A stretch of 64,000 nt of DNA from Corynebacterium resistens DSM 45100 (GTDB lineage: Bacteria; Actinomycetota; Actinomycetes; Mycobacteriales; Mycobacteriaceae): the NCBI RefSeq assembly GCF_000177535.2, contig NC_015673.1, forward strand, positions 62,001-126,000. Reading direction: 5' to 3'. This document shows, in pieces, positions 15,390 to 56,583 of the stretch; position 1 is the first letter of the stretch, and each line of letters begins with the position of its first letter. Position numbers and translations under genes: made by a program. The notes under the pieces are model-generated. The model searched no databases. It was not told the origin of the DNA and saw only the letters and a program-made list of their open reading frames with translations.

Positions 15390-16439
15390 ATGACCTACGA
15401 CTATGTCATCGGCATGGACGTTGGCAAATACTTTCACCACGCTTGCGTCTTAGATATCGACGGCGCCCAAGTACTATCAAAGCGCATCAACCAAAACGAA
15501 AAGTCCCTGCGCACACTCTTTTCAACGTTCAGCGCAAACGACCACAAGGTCCTTGTCGTCGTGGACCAGCCCAATAACATTGGGCGACTAACTGTCGCGG
15601 TTGCCCAAGATATCGGAATCGACGTGCGCTATCTTCCAGGTTTGGCTATGCGCCAACTCTCACGCATCCACGCTGGTAATGCCAAAACTGATATCCGGGA
15701 TGCATATATCATCGCCCACGCTGCACAGAACCTTCCGGAATCCCTCCGCAGTGTCGACCGCGTCGAAGAAGCCTTCCTCCAGTTGAAAGTCCTCAACGGC
15801 ATCGACGAAGACTTAGCACGCTCCTACACCAGGCTCATCAATCAGATTCGAAGTGCACTAGTTGGCTGCTACCCGCAATTCGAACAAGCCCTTCGCGGCC
15901 AAATAATCCACCGCAAGTGGGTTCTGCACCTACTTGCACGCTACGGCGGGCCCACCAAAATAAAGCGCCTCGGAAAAGCCAAAGCAGCTGCCTTTGCTCG
16001 ACGCTATAAGGCACGCAATCCCGAGCCCGTCATCGACGCCATATTCGCTGCCATCTCTGAGCAAACAGTCGCCATTGCTGGTGCAAAATATGCCGAAATG
16101 GGCGTAGCAATGTCGGCGAAGGACGCGCTCTTAAAGCTCGAGCACCGCAAACAAATCGAGCAGGAAGTCATCGAACTCATCAACGACATCCCCCACACTC
16201 AAATCCTGCTATCCATGCCGGGAATCGGGCCGAAGACGGCTGCCCAAATTCTCATGACCGCGGGCGACATGTCCGGCTTCCCGACAGCTGGGCACCTAGC
16301 CTCTTACGCTGGCTTATCACCCCGAACGAATCAGTCCGGAACCTCAATCATGTCGAACTCACTGAACAGAGCTGGTTAAGCGACAAAATGTGTGTCCGGA
16401 ATCGTTGATTTTCATGCTCTGAACTCCGCGTTTGCGGAA

Positions 16440-16464
16440 AATATATGCTCCAAAAGCATATATT
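16440..16464 (+). promoter_or_regulatory. Hairpin in IS1249 leader (copy A)
   Basis: A perfect 10-bp stem (AATATATGCT / AGCATATATT) with a CCAAA loop lies between the left end and the transposase start. The same structure occurs in copy B at 20470-20494. In copies C (21872-21892) and D it has a shorter 8-bp stem and a CCGGA loop. It may limit transposase expression from outside promoters. Confidence 0.5.
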
Positions 16465-16533
16465 GGCCCTCTCTTGCGAAAATCCCCGGTGTGGCTGCCA
16501 TGGTGTGCTACGGAGCGGTGGTTCGGTTGCCCA

Positions 16534-17712
16534 ATGCCAAAGAACCGACCACGCTGCCATTGTGGCGGCGATATGAAACGAAACGGCACCACCAGCAACG
16601 GGACGACCCGGTGGCGGTGCAAAATCTGCGGTGCTTCACTGACCAAGCAGCGCAGCGATATCACCAACGCAGCCCTATTTCGTGCGTTCATCCAGCACCT
16701 GACCGCCGGGACCAGTCTTGCGGCGATCGCCGGCAACATGAGCTGCTCGACACGTACGCTGCAGCGCAAATTCGATGCCTTTTGGCTGGTTGACGTGCCT
16801 GACCCGACCATCGGCCATACAGGCAGGGTCTACGACCAGATCTTCATCGACGGCACCTACACCGCAGGTGGCTGTCTGATCGTGGCGGCAACGCTCGACC
16901 ACGTCATCGCCTGGCACTGGTGCAAACAAGAAACCACACACGACTACAAGCGCCTGCTCGAGCGCATCGAAGCACCGTTGATCGCTGTGATCGACGGTGG
17001 CCGAGGAGCCACAAGCGCAATTAAAACGTGCTGGCCAAACACCAAAATCCAACGCTGCCTCGTGCACGCCCAACGCAGAGTACGCCGCTACACCACCTCA
17101 CGACCACGCACTGATGCTGGCCGCACCATCTACCGACTCGCGCTGAAACTCACCCGCATCACCACCCTGGACGAGGCTGCACAATGGGGTGCACAACTGC
17201 AAGAGTTTCACACGCTCTACAAGGATTGGCTCAACGAAAAGACACAGGTCAAAGACCCGAAAACAGCAAAAGACACACTCGTGTGGACCCATGTCAACGT
17301 GCGCAAGGCCTACAACAGTCTCAACCACCTGTGGCGCAATGACCTGCTGTTTGTCTACCTCAAGCCCCCGAAAGGTGTGCTCGAGCCGCACCGGATCAAA
17401 TCCACCACCAACAGTCTTGAAGGCGGCATCAACGCCCAGCTGAAGCTCCTTGCAAGAACTCATCGCGGCAGACGCGGTGAGCACCAACGCAAAATGCTGG
17501 ATTGGTGGCTGTATCTGAAAACGGAACTGCCTGGCGATCCAATAGAAATCGCCAGACAGTCCAACTGGGGCCAGAACCAACTCGCCAAAGTTACAACCCT
17601 GACCCGAAACGAGAACCAAGCCGACTATGAAACAGGACAACCAGCCCTCTACGACAACGGTATCGATACCGAGTACACACACTCAATCGGCATCCAAAAA
17701 GGCCACATCTAA
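16534..17712 (+). CDS. IS1249-family transposase (copy A)
   Basis: A protein of 392 residues from ATG 16534 (MPKNRPRCHCGGDMKRNGTT). An N-terminal zinc-ribbon-like CxC...CxxC motif is followed by a Mutator/IS256-type DDE catalytic domain: FIDGTYTAGGC, AVIDGGRGA, and the NSLEGGINAQLK helix bearing the last acidic residue. The frame is open 34 codons further up to 16432, but that part crosses the leader hairpin and is unlikely to be translated. The protein is identical to that of copy B. Nothing visible disables it. Confidence 0.9.
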   Translation: MPKNRPRCHCGGDMKRNGTTSNGTTRWRCKICGASLTKQRSDITNAALFRAFIQHLTAGTSLAAIAGNMSCSTRTLQRKFDAFWLVDVPDPTIGHTGRVYDQIFIDGTYTAGGCLIVAATLDHVIAWHWCKQETTHDYKRLLERIEAPLIAVIDGGRGATSAIKTCWPNTKIQRCLVHAQRRVRRYTTSRPRTDAGRTIYRLALKLTRITTLDEAAQWGAQLQEFHTLYKDWLNEKTQVKDPKTAKDTLVWTHVNVRKAYNSLNHLWRNDLLFVYLKPPKGVLEPHRIKSTTNSLEGGINAQLKLLARTHRGRRGEHQRKMLDWWLYLKTELPGDPIEIARQSNWGQNQLAKVTTLTRNENQADYETGQPALYDNGIDTEYTHSIGIQKGHI

Positions 17713-17960
17713 CCCCGCGACACGCCGATAGCAGACACACATTTTGTCGCTTAACCCACAGAGCTGGCAATAAAAAATTAAAGAACGCCCTATGGCAATC
17801 ATCTTTTGCATCCATCAGATTCCACGAGCGTTCACGGCAATTCTATGAACGAAAGCGCCGTGAAGGCAAGAGACACAACGCCGCAGTAGTAGCACTAGCC
17901 CGCAGACGGCTCAACGTCCTATACGCCATGATGAGCAATGAAGTGCCCCGGGTTTTGTTC

Positions 17961-18881
17961 CTAGGCGTTTGCCTTGATTTCTATTATTGCTTGCGGCGGG
18001 TGCTGGTCCCAAAATTCGGTTTCCACTTCAGCTGGCGTGCGGTAGCCCAAGCTTTGGTGAAGCCTCGTCTCGTTCCACCATGACACCCACTCAAACGTCG
18101 CGATTTCCACCTCGACAACCTCATCCCACCTGCGAGTATGGATCAGCTCGTTTTTGTAGGAACCATTAACGTTTTCCGCCAGAGCATTGTCATAGGAGTC
18201 GCCAACAGTTCCGGTGGAAGCGGCAATCCCGTGCTGGGCAAGACGCTCGTTGTAGACAACGCTGACATACTGCGAGCCGTGATCCGAATGATGAATGAGA
18301 CCTGTTGTTTCCTCAGCAGACGCGATCGCCTGGTTGAGAGCTTGCAGCGGCAACGCTTCGGTGCGCATGGAATCTGATAACGCCCACCCAACGATCCGTC
18401 GGGAGTAAACATCGGTGACAAACGCGGCATACACAAAGCCTTTCTTCGTGCGCACGTAGGTAATATCAGCCACCCACAGCTTGTTCGGGCCTTCGGCTTT
18501 GAATTCTCGCTCCACCAAGTCCGGGCGCAAATCCGGCCTTTGAGGTGTGCGAGTGGTCATAGGCGAGCGGCCTTTGCCTTTGCCTGATACACCGGCTAGA
18601 CGCATCAGCCGCGCGGTTTGTTCACGACCGATATCGATTCCGTCACGATGAAGAGCATGCCACATTTTCCGCACACCGTAGATGCCGTAATTATCCCGAT
18701 GGATAGCACTAATGCGTTCAACCAGCACAGCATCACGAAGGCCGCGAGCACTTACCCCACGGGCCTTGGACTGACGATACCCACGCGAGGTGATGAACCC
18801 ACCAGCGCGGTTTTTCTTCAACGTCTTACAGATGAACTCGACAGAGAAACGATTCCGGTATTCATCGATGAACCGGATCAT
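17961..18881 (-). CDS. IS3-family transposase OrfB (copy 1)
   Basis: A protein of 306 residues with HTH_21-like N-terminal part and an rve integrase core. DDE residues are visible in LWVADITYVRT, HHSDHGSQY and the glutamate of NALAENVNGSYKNE. It catalyses IS3 transposition, normally as an OrfAB fusion. Its start overlaps the OrfA stop by ATGA, which allows re-initiation or frameshifting. Confidence 0.93.
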   Translation of the reverse strand: MIRFIDEYRNRFSVEFICKTLKKNRAGGFITSRGYRQSKARGVSARGLRDAVLVERISAIHRDNYGIYGVRKMWHALHRDGIDIGREQTARLMRLAGVSGKGKGRSPMTTRTPQRPDLRPDLVEREFKAEGPNKLWVADITYVRTKKGFVYAAFVTDVYSRRIVGWALSDSMRTEALPLQALNQAIASAEETTGLIHHSDHGSQYVSVVYNERLAQHGIAASTGTVGDSYDNALAENVNGSYKNELIHTRRWDEVVEVEIATFEWVSWWNETRLHQSLGYRTPAEVETEFWDQHPPQAIIEIKANA

Positions 18882-19195
18882 TTCCGACGTTTTGGGTCGA
18901 GTTCCGACGCGAAAAAAGCTGAGGCAGCCTTTAAAAGTTCATTGGTGTCGCGTAGCTCTTGATTTTCACGGCGAAGCCTCGCGTTTTCGGCGGCCAGATC
19001 TTCAGGCACGGGTTCTGGGATGTTTCCCGCACGGCGGGCCTGTTGGGTCCATTGACGGGCTGTGTGCCATGACACCCCCAGCTTTGGGGCTACTGCCTGG
19101 CACGCGGCTTGCATCGACATATTTTCCGCCAAGATGCGGTCCTCTACAAGACGGACCACACGATCCTTCGCATCCTGGTCAAATTTTCTTGGCAT
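18878..19195 (-). CDS. IS3-family transposase OrfA (copy 1)
   Basis: A protein of 105 residues starting MPRKFDQDAKDRVVRLVEDR. A helix-turn-helix (LGVSWHTARQWTQQARRAG) is followed by a leucine-zipper-like coiled coil (AAENARLRRENQELRDTNEL). It binds the terminal repeats and partners OrfB. ATG 19195 lies just inside the element end; longer frames would begin outside the element. Confidence 0.92.
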   Translation of the reverse strand: MPRKFDQDAKDRVVRLVEDRILAENMSMQAACQAVAPKLGVSWHTARQWTQQARRAGNIPEPVPEDLAAENARLRRENQELRDTNELLKAASAFFASELDPKRRK

Positions 19196-19314
19196 ATTCC
19201 AGATTTCCCATCTACTCAAACGGAACAAAACCTGGGACACTTCACAACCACGAGTACTACCGCGACCCCGACCAATCACAGGAAGTCAAAGCAGCCTAAA
19301 CACCAAGAACCAAA

Positions 19315-49861: not shown

Positions 49862-49977
49862 TGATGCCGGCGGCGACCTACTCTCCCACACCCTCCCGAG
49901 TGCAGTACCATCGGCGCGGATAGGCTTAGCTTCCGGGTTCGGAAAGGGACCGGGCGTGACCCCATCGCAAAAACCAC
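49862..49977 (-). rRNA. rrf: 5S ribosomal RNA
   Basis: On the minus strand it reads GTGGTTTTTGCGATGGGGTC to CGCCGCCGGCATCACAA; the loop A/E sequences ACGCCCGGTCCC and GGGAGAGTAGGTCGCCGCC match actinobacterial 5S. Ends are approximate. Only ~50 nt separate it from the IS150-type element, so part of the natural rrn terminator may be lost. Confidence 0.92.
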
Positions 49978-50269
49978 CGACAAAAACATCAGGAACCCAA
50001 ACACACCCACACACTCAACACCGGCCACAAAGACCAGGTGGTTTGGTGGTGTGCCGTGGTATTCCAGACACTGCATAACAGACGCGAGTACACACTCTTT
50101 TCAATGTTCACACCTCACACACGCAGAGTGTGTCGTGGTTGGTGTGTTGTGATAGCTACGACCGTGTATCTATCTACATTGCACGACAAGTATGATGATG
50201 CACAACACTCAACACTCAGATTGAGTTTGTATCCCCACACAACCACTCTCATAGTGTTGGTGGTGGGTT

Positions 50270-53810
<3,541 letters not shown>

Positions 53811-53878
53811 ATCGCCGATCCCACCTTCGACAGCTCCCTAACGAGTTTGGGCCACTGGCTTCGGGTGTTACCAACTTT

Positions 53879-53928
<50 letters not shown>

Positions 53929-53955
53929 CGTTGCTGATCTGCGATTACTAGCGAC

Positions 53956-53997
<42 letters not shown>

Positions 53998-54178
53998 AGA
54001 CCGGCTTTAAGGGATTAGCTCCACCTCACGGCATCGCAACCCACTGTACCGACCATTGTAGCATGTGTGAAGCCCTGGACATAAGGGGCATGATGATTTG
54101 ACGTCATCCCCACCTTCCTCCGAGTTAACCCCGGCAGTCTCTCGCGAGTCCCCACCATAACGTGCTGGCAACACAAGA

Positions 54179-54244
<66 letters not shown>

Positions 54245-54307
54245 CCACCTGTATACGAGCCACAAGGGAAAACGTATCTCTACGCCGATCCCGTATATGT
54301 CAAGCCC

Positions 54308-54338
<31 letters not shown>

Positions 54339-54351
54339 TCCACATGCTCCG

Positions 54352-54415
<64 letters not shown>

Positions 54416-54594
54416 GGCGCTTAATGCGTTAGCTACGGCACGGAAGTCGTGAAAAACCCCCACACCTAGCGCCCACCGTTTACGGCATGGACTACCAGGG
54501 TATCTAATCCTGTTCGCTACCCATGCTTTCGCTCCTCAGCGTCAGTTACTGCCCAGAGACCTGCCTTCGCCATCGGTGTTCCTCCTGATATCTG

Positions 54595-54625
<31 letters not shown>

Positions 54626-54754
54626 CTCCCCTACAGCACTCAAGTTATGCCCGTATCGCCAGCAGACCCGGAGTTAAGCCCCGGGCTTTCACTAACGACG
54701 CGACAAACCACCTACGAGCTCTTTACGCCCAGTAATTCCGGACAACGCTTGCAC

Positions 54755-54798
<44 letters not shown>

Positions 54799-54909
54799 CT
54801 TATCCAGGTACCGTCACCAAAAAGGCTTCTTCCCTAGCGAAAGAGGTTTACAACCCGAAGGCCGTCATCCCTCACGCGGCGTCGCTGCATCAGGCTTCCG
54901 CCCATTGTG

Positions 54910-54962
<53 letters not shown>

Positions 54963-55122
54963 ATGTGGCCGTACACCCTCTCAGGCCGGCTACCCGTCGT
55001 CGCCTTGGTAGGCCATTACCCCACCAACAAGCTGATAGGCCGCGGGCTCATCTCGTACCGAAAAACTTTCCACTGAAGTGTCCCAGGTTTTGTTCCGTTT
55101 GAGTAGATGGGAAATCTGGAAT

Positions 55123-55440
55123 ATGCCAAGAAAATTTGACCAGGATGCGAAGGATCGTGTGGTCCGTCTTGTAGAGGACCGCATCTTGGCGGAAAATATG
55201 TCGATGCAAGCCGCGTGCCAGGCAGTAGCCCCAAAGCTGGGGGTGTCATGGCACACAGCCCGTCAATGGACCCAACAGGCCCGCCGTGCGGGAAACATCC
55301 CAGAACCCGTGCCTGAAGATCTGGCCGCCGAAAACGCGAGGCTTCGCCGTGAAAATCAAGAGCTACGCGACACCAATGAACTTTTAAAGGCTGCCTCAGC
55401 TTTTTTCGCGTCGGAACTCGACCCAAAACGTCGGAAATGA
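55123..55440 (+). CDS. IS3-family transposase OrfA (copy 2)
   Basis: A 105-residue protein identical to OrfA of copy 1, with the LGVSWHTARQWTQQARRAG helix-turn-helix and coiled coil. It starts 49 nt inside the element. Confidence 0.93.
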   Translation: MPRKFDQDAKDRVVRLVEDRILAENMSMQAACQAVAPKLGVSWHTARQWTQQARRAGNIPEPVPEDLAAENARLRRENQELRDTNELLKAASAFFASELDPKRRK

Positions 55441-56357
55441 TCCGGTTCATCGATGAATACCGGAATCGTTTCTCTGTCGAGTTCATCTGTAAGACGTTGA
55501 AGAAAAACCGCGCTGGTGGGTTCATCACCTCGCGTGGGTATCGTCAGTCCAAGGCCCGTGGGGTAAGTGCTCGCGGCCTTCGTGATGCTGTGCTGGTTGA
55601 ACGCATTAGTGCTATCCATCGGGATAATTACGGCATCTACGGTGTGCGGAAAATGTGGCATGCTCTTCATCGTGACGGAATCGATATCGGTCGTGAACAA
55701 ACCGCGCGGCTGATGCGTCTAGCCGGTGTATCAGGCAAAGGCAAAGGCCGCTCGCCTATGACCACTCGCACACCTCAAAGGCCGGATTTGCGCCCGGACT
55801 TGGTGGAGCGAGAATTCAAAGCCGAAGGCCCGAACAAGCTGTGGGTGGCTGATATTACCTACGTGCGCACGAAGAAAGGCTTTGTGTATGCCGCGTTTGT
55901 CACCGATGTTTACTCCCGACGGATCGTTGGGTGGGCGTTATCAGATTCCATGCGCACCGAAGCGTTGCCGCTGCAAGCTCTCAACCAGGCGATCGCGTCT
56001 GCTGAGGAAACAACAGGTCTCATTCATCATTCGGATCACGGCTCGCAGTATGTCAGCGTTGTCTACAACGAGCGTCTTGCCCAGCACGGGATTGCCGCTT
56101 CCACCGGAACTGTTGGCGACTCCTATGACAATGCTCTGGCGGAAAACGTTAATGGTTCCTACAAAAACGAGCTGATCCATACTCGCAGGTGGGATGAGGT
56201 TGTCGAGGTGGAAATCGCGACGTTTGAGTGGGTGTCATGGTGGAACGAGACGAGGCTTCACCAAAGCTTGGGCTACCGCACGCCAGCTGAAGTGGAAACC
56301 GAATTTTGGGACCAGCACCCGCCGCAAGCAATAATAGAAATCAAGGCAAACGCCTAG
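55437..56357 (+). CDS. IS3-family transposase OrfB (copy 2)
   Basis: A 306-residue rve-domain transposase identical to that of copy 1, DDE residues present (VADITYV, HHSDHGSQY, NALAENVNG). It overlaps orfA by ATGA. It is intact, so this insertion is probably recent. Confidence 0.93.
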   Translation: MIRFIDEYRNRFSVEFICKTLKKNRAGGFITSRGYRQSKARGVSARGLRDAVLVERISAIHRDNYGIYGVRKMWHALHRDGIDIGREQTARLMRLAGVSGKGKGRSPMTTRTPQRPDLRPDLVEREFKAEGPNKLWVADITYVRTKKGFVYAAFVTDVYSRRIVGWALSDSMRTEALPLQALNQAIASAEETTGLIHHSDHGSQYVSVVYNERLAQHGIAASTGTVGDSYDNALAENVNGSYKNELIHTRRWDEVVEVEIATFEWVSWWNETRLHQSLGYRTPAEVETEFWDQHPPQAIIEIKANA

Positions 56358-56536
56358 GAACAAAACCCGGGGCACTTCACCACCAACCACACTAAAGATT
56401 GGTCCTATCCGGTATTAGACCCAGTTTCCCAGGCTTATCCCGAAGTACAAGGCAGATCACCCACGTGTTACTCACCCGTTCGCCACTCGAGTACCCCTGC
56501 AAGCAGAGGCCTTTCCGTTCGACTTGCATGTGTTAA

Positions 56537-56580
<44 letters not shown>

Positions 56581-56583
56581 AAA

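Follow-up and report, generated by a model that had tools for sequence, protein, structure and literature searches.

A complete IS3-family element in one 16S rRNA gene of Corynebacterium resistens DSM 45100, and a lone terminal repeat at the corresponding nucleotide of a second, in the deposited genome

The deposited genome of Corynebacterium resistens DSM 45100 contains three 16S rRNA genes, of which one is clean, another is interrupted by a complete 1306-bp IS3-family element, and the third carries a 28-nucleotide (nt) insertion. The reading that we favor, with a probability of about 0.7, is that a real insertion took place in one operon and that a further copy of the element has left a remnant in another. 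The complete element was found in the window under study, a 64,000-nt stretch of the chromosome (G000:C1:62001-126000).

The original prediction had described a complete IS3 copy with a CCAC duplication, at 55070-56383 and about 200 nt into a 16S gene. The terminal repeats and the empty-site alignment both agree with that description; the coordinates are correct when both duplications are counted in, and the element starts 196 nt past the 16S start motif GAGTTTGATCC. Its ends read TG...CA, and CCAC flanks it on both sides. Removal of the element restores a normal 16S sequence, as had been anticipated: without it and one CCAC, both flanks equal those of the uninterrupted copy at G000:C1:1170589-1172109. 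It was also borne out that the transposase genes oppose rRNA transcription, their open reading frames (ORFs) being on the plus strand and the 16S gene on the minus strand. No tRNA gene was found by ARAGORN in the 64-kb window, the 16S-23S spacer included. The full 1306-bp insertion in the 16S gene of the window is, in our judgment, very probably real. The features concerned are as follows (positions are those of the window, except for the last line).

55074..56379, plus strand: complete IS3-family element, probably IS3504, 1306 bp (from terminal repeats, empty-site comparison and identical copies)
55070..55073: target-site duplication CCAC, left
56380..56383: target-site duplication CCAC, right
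55074..55096, plus strand: left terminal inverted repeat, 23 bp
56357..56379, minus strand: right terminal inverted repeat, 23 bp, identical to the left at 21/23 positions
55123..55440, plus strand: orfA, 105 aa, HTH_Tnp_1 (PF01527; Pfam scan on the longer frame from 55078)
55401..55407, plus strand: T_TTT_TTC, candidate -1 slippery site between orfA and orfB (from sequence)
55437..56357, plus strand: orfB, 306 aa, rve catalytic domain with D139, D200 and E236 (Pfam and translation)
53753..56583, minus strand: 16S rRNA gene including the element (G000:C1:115753-118583)
56380..56583, minus strand: 16S rRNA gene, 5' piece
53753..55073, minus strand: 16S rRNA gene, 3' piece
50271..53354, minus strand: downstream 23S rRNA gene, score equal to those of the other two copies
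49865..49981, minus strand: 5S rRNA gene of the same operon as the interrupted 16S gene
17939..19244, minus strand: second chromosomal copy of the element, identical, flanked by CAA (3 bp)
G000:C1:605515-605542 (L011:1216-1243): 28-nt insertion in the 16S gene of a second operon; left terminal repeat, GTGG and T

The two ORFs of the element are both open and overlap by four bases, orfB lying in the -1 frame, and the overlap is preceded by T_TTT_TTC, which we take from IS3-family biology to be a putative -1 frameshift site yielding OrfAB. The orfB product scored 286.7 bits against NF033516 transpos_IS3 (cut-off 160) and 85.1 bits against PF00665, and its translation contains the DD(35)E triad. 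By sequence, orfA and orfB belong to IS3-type families, and the element combines an rve transposase, two overlapping ORFs, the DD(35)E triad, and terminal repeats with a short target duplication. In the IS3 family, target duplications are 3 to 5 bp long. The suggestion that the element is apparently active holds in an indirect sense, through its intact frames and the occurrence of three 100% identical copies.

Two of these identical full copies are chromosomal, as seen in the element search, and the third resides on the plasmid pJA144188 of DSM 45100, upstream of erm(X). The second chromosomal copy sits downstream of a Mutator-type transposase ORF (16432-17712). The plasmid copy was probably rearranged since its insertion, because it is without a flanking duplication. 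In the accessible parts of the genome paper, IS3504 is placed upstream of erm(X) on pJA144188 (PMC3350403), the very place occupied by the identical plasmid copy. The element is thus probably IS3504, a name that comes from this position. Seven plasmid records contain the element at 90-100% identity, five from Corynebacterium and two from Rothia. The copies on the Rothia plasmids (NZ_CP062957.1 and NZ_CP062962.1) are about 98% identical, pointing, on sequence grounds, to recent spread between genera. The 44 copies that were aligned at both ends comprise 12 with a 3-bp flanking repeat, two with a 4-bp repeat, and 30 with none of 3 bp or more; the 4-bp duplication in the 16S gene is therefore of the rarer length. 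All three C. resistens copies differ from the 11 relatives aligned (11/11) by one A fewer in the A-run at element position 41, ahead of orfA. The missing A may be either a 454 homopolymer undercall or a real shared change.

The rrn operon count, which the original prediction had suggested taking, is three: the genome contains three 23S and three 16S genes, a fourth row in the 16S search being the split copy. The operons are referred to herein as a (16S at C1:605311), b (C1:1170589) and c (in the window). All three are identical over the 701 bp that precede the 16S start motif, over 196 nt into the 16S gene, and over at least 4806 bp past the site. In an alignment of about 5.7 kb, every difference among the three falls at one point, at which the 16S gene of operon b is clean, that of operon c contains the full element, and that of operon a has 28 extra nt at exactly the nucleotide of the operon c insertion. 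As the sequence stands, one 16S gene out of three is clean. The accessible parts of the genome paper give three 16S-23S-5S sets and do not mention an interruption (PMC3350403). Divergence among the operons was rejected as a means of dating the event; the operons are identical, yet a collapsed 454 consensus would look identical too.

Of the 28 nt in operon a, 23 are the left terminal repeat, four are a second GTGG, and one is an additional T within a T-run. This solo repeat is oriented oppositely to the element in the window, and the same GTGG is duplicated. In the element search it appeared as a 25-bp perfect match within a second 16S gene, and a search for the 23-bp repeat with up to three mismatches found five perfect sites in the chromosome, namely two per full copy and the one in operon a, together with one further site with three mismatches. 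The bases of the solo repeat are those of the left end (T at position 8, A at position 12), whereas the 5' junction of the full copy, read in the rRNA sense, has right-end bases (C at 8 and G at 12). Simple carry-over from the full copy is thereby excluded. Left-end bases following the same 16S bases would instead imply that an element was inserted at this nucleotide the other way round, or that the template was switched between the ends. The T-run beside the site is T6 in operon a, versus T5. In relatives, T5 was read directly in 3/9 and T6 in 4/9, with an extra T in one more by alignment; the T5/T6 difference was accordingly discarded as a test of remnant versus artefact, both lengths being present. 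We take the solo repeat to be what a deletion left of a second insertion, or else an error made in finishing, with slightly better than even odds that it is real. Short left-end relics also occur elsewhere: Corynebacterium sp. KPL1814 (L015:999-1027) and sp. ACRQK (L019:5553-5581) both contain the element's first 29 bases alone, in flanking sequence that is common to both and without a flanking duplication.

Relatives were searched for a hot spot or for the same lesion. rRNA was absent from the flanks (up to 3 kb) of all 80 loci of element relatives so inspected (0/80, of 364 confirmed), and a target hot spot was set aside as unsupported. Among 242 Corynebacterium genomes, the junction pattern was exact only in that of C. 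resistens, where it occurs twice; with up to two mismatches it matched in 40/242. When 121 genomes were searched with a 201-nt 16S query spanning the site, 98 gave a match, and among the matches listed, 148 from 49 other genomes span 201-204 bp, corresponding to no insertion at the site. As interrupted 16S copies would rank lower than the matches listed, this result shows only that the site is usually clean in relatives.

The bacterial SSU model places the insertion site, with a low posterior (about 0.4 to 0.6), in the 5' domain, where unpaired sequence separates two short variable hairpins; we take these hairpins to be 16S helices 9 and 10. With the 28-nt insertion, the 16S covariance score drops only from 1560.0 to 1548.9 bits, so that the operon a 16S might still work. 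The 28-nt insertion itself gave no signal of a special fold (z-scores of -0.98 and -0.21 relative to shuffles). Promoter-like sites in the element number two, versus 2.0 in shuffles, and terminator-like sites eight, versus 5.2 (sd 2.3), which is nothing notable.

The course of events that we propose begins with the transposition of the element, probably IS3504 from the resistance plasmid pJA144188, into one 16S gene, with duplication of 4 bp; this step is the one for which the sequence itself speaks. Operon c would still be transcribed from its unchanged leader and would still yield 23S and 5S rRNA, in line with the expectation that these two may still be made, since both genes are intact downstream and the leader is the same as in the other operons. 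Its 16S gene, broken by 1.3 kb, is most likely lost as a normal 16S. Unbalanced rRNA stoichiometry and transposase expression swamped by rRNA transcription, both put forward in the original prediction, would be possible consequences. The solo repeat of operon a would be what is left of a second element copy at the same spot, the rest having been deleted, from base 24 as far as the distal GTGG, perhaps by way of the two bases GT that element positions 24-25 share with the duplicated GTGG; a template switch from one inverted end to the other may have produced the same outcome. The cell would in that case rely on a single clean 16S, along with a 28-nt-longer 16S if that insertion is tolerated between the variable hairpins.

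Several observations agree with this course of events: the duplication, the ends and the reading frames of the full copy; the fact that perfect repeats number only five; and the single point at which the three operons differ, taken together with the solo repeat bases that exclude carry-over and the small fall in covariance score. Weighing against it, our conclusions come from an assembly, which was made in 2012 from a quarter 454 run, in 73 large contigs with gaps closed by PCR, according to the accessible parts of the genome paper (PMC3350403), which count three complete 16S-23S-5S sets. Moreover, that one nucleotide was hit twice independently and in opposite orientations is improbable unless a hot spot, gene conversion or an artefact is involved, and no hot spot emerged from the 80 loci. 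A finishing or PCR artefact in operon a, hiding either a full element of opposite orientation or a normal 16S gene while the insertion in operon c is real, is a serious contender, with somewhat less than an even chance of being correct. The contig number and the PCR closure make such an error conceivable, the solo piece stops exactly at the inner edge of the repeat, where the left and right ends cease to agree, beside the T6-versus-T5 homopolymer difference, as a faulty join might, and the missing A in all three element copies fits a 454 undercall, a real shared change being possible as well. On the other hand, left-end bases following the 5' piece of 16S are seen at no other 16S junction in the assembly, so a real molecule should have carried this junction, and the extra T need not be an error, since T5 and T6 are both natural in relatives. 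An error reaching further, with all 16S genes intact and the entire arrangement produced by joining contigs through the repeated element, appears very improbable. Both the rrn operons and the element are repeats in a 454 assembly of 2012, but a plain misjoin would give no perfect target duplication. Here the 4-bp duplication is perfect, the two flanks come from one 16S site, and in another operon that site has a solo end of this element.

A different view is that the element acts as an rRNA intervening sequence whose end stem is cut by RNase III, with the 16S rRNA working in two pieces. In the minimum-energy fold of a 1391-nt rRNA-sense stretch of operon c, 22/23 end pairs are predicted (21.8 expected) and the preceding hairpin is intact, so that a stable terminal stem in the precursor, a trait of intervening sequences, is present in the predicted fold; the site falls between two variable hairpins, if with low posterior, and RNase III is encoded in the genome. 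The precedent is found in 23S rRNA of Coxiella, where RNase III cuts intervening sequences that have a 28-bp terminal stem, and the fragmented rRNA that results is functional (accessible parts of PMC4990558). Yet the end pairing stays in 12/12 folds of interior-shuffled controls and is non-specific, as the terminal repeats alone account for it; any transcript containing such an element would show the same pairing. The insertion in Coxiella burnetii, in helix 45, is like that of C. resistens in its complementary ends, long stem and variable rRNA location (same paper, accessible parts), but the C. resistens insert is far larger at 1.3 kb, bears a transposase on the opposite strand, and is in 16S, with excision a possibility. 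Excision from the operon c transcript in this fashion is possible, going by the fold; a working two-piece 16S is unlikely. Slightly less likely still is that the element is a newborn intervening sequence, removed by RNase III, of which the operon a remnant would represent the next stage. If that were true, the genome would show several steps from mobile element to rRNA intervening sequence, and the 23-bp remnant would be an element shrunk to a short, tolerated expansion.

A real insertion in one operon, with a remnant in another, would not be without parallel. Transposase-bearing inserts in single 23S copies have been described in Deinococcus radiodurans and Nostoc, the insert of PCC 7120 being 1471 nt long (PMC2672173). 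As in C. resistens, a complete element with terminal inverted repeats is present in one rrn copy, and the genome has further copies, near-identical or homologous, at other places. The other rrn copies are uninterrupted in these cases; in C. resistens one other 16S gene is clean and the third bears the 28-nt insertion. Differences are that 23S and not 16S is affected and that other transposase families are involved; a solo end at the same nucleotide in a second operon is not described in the accessible parts of that paper, on which this whole comparison draws. The statement that rRNA insertions are rarely reported is fair for 16S within our searches; for 23S, published cases exist. For 16S, our literature search, with most subscription journals outside it, yielded no insertion sequence in a Corynebacterium 16S gene, and none is reported in the accessible parts of PMC3914690, PMC5496347, PMC6579920, PMC3669393 and PMC5529391. 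As insertion sequences in 23S genes were already published, the C. resistens 16S case is a further example.

Should the deposited sequence be correct, this clinical corynebacterium gets by on a single clean 16S gene among three, and both lesions go back to one mobile element carried by a plasmid; the published figure of three 16S-23S-5S sets is then too high as a count of intact rRNA genes. For 16S-based typing, the operon with the 28-nt insertion, if real, is a greater concern than the one with the full element, since its amplification product is of almost normal length. If the solo repeat instead arose as an error in finishing, the reference genome holds a wrong 16S sequence, which was possibly taken up by 16S databases. 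In both cases, DSM 45100 lends itself to testing whether 16S rRNA tolerates large inserts at this position and by what route rRNA intervening sequences might arise from mobile elements.
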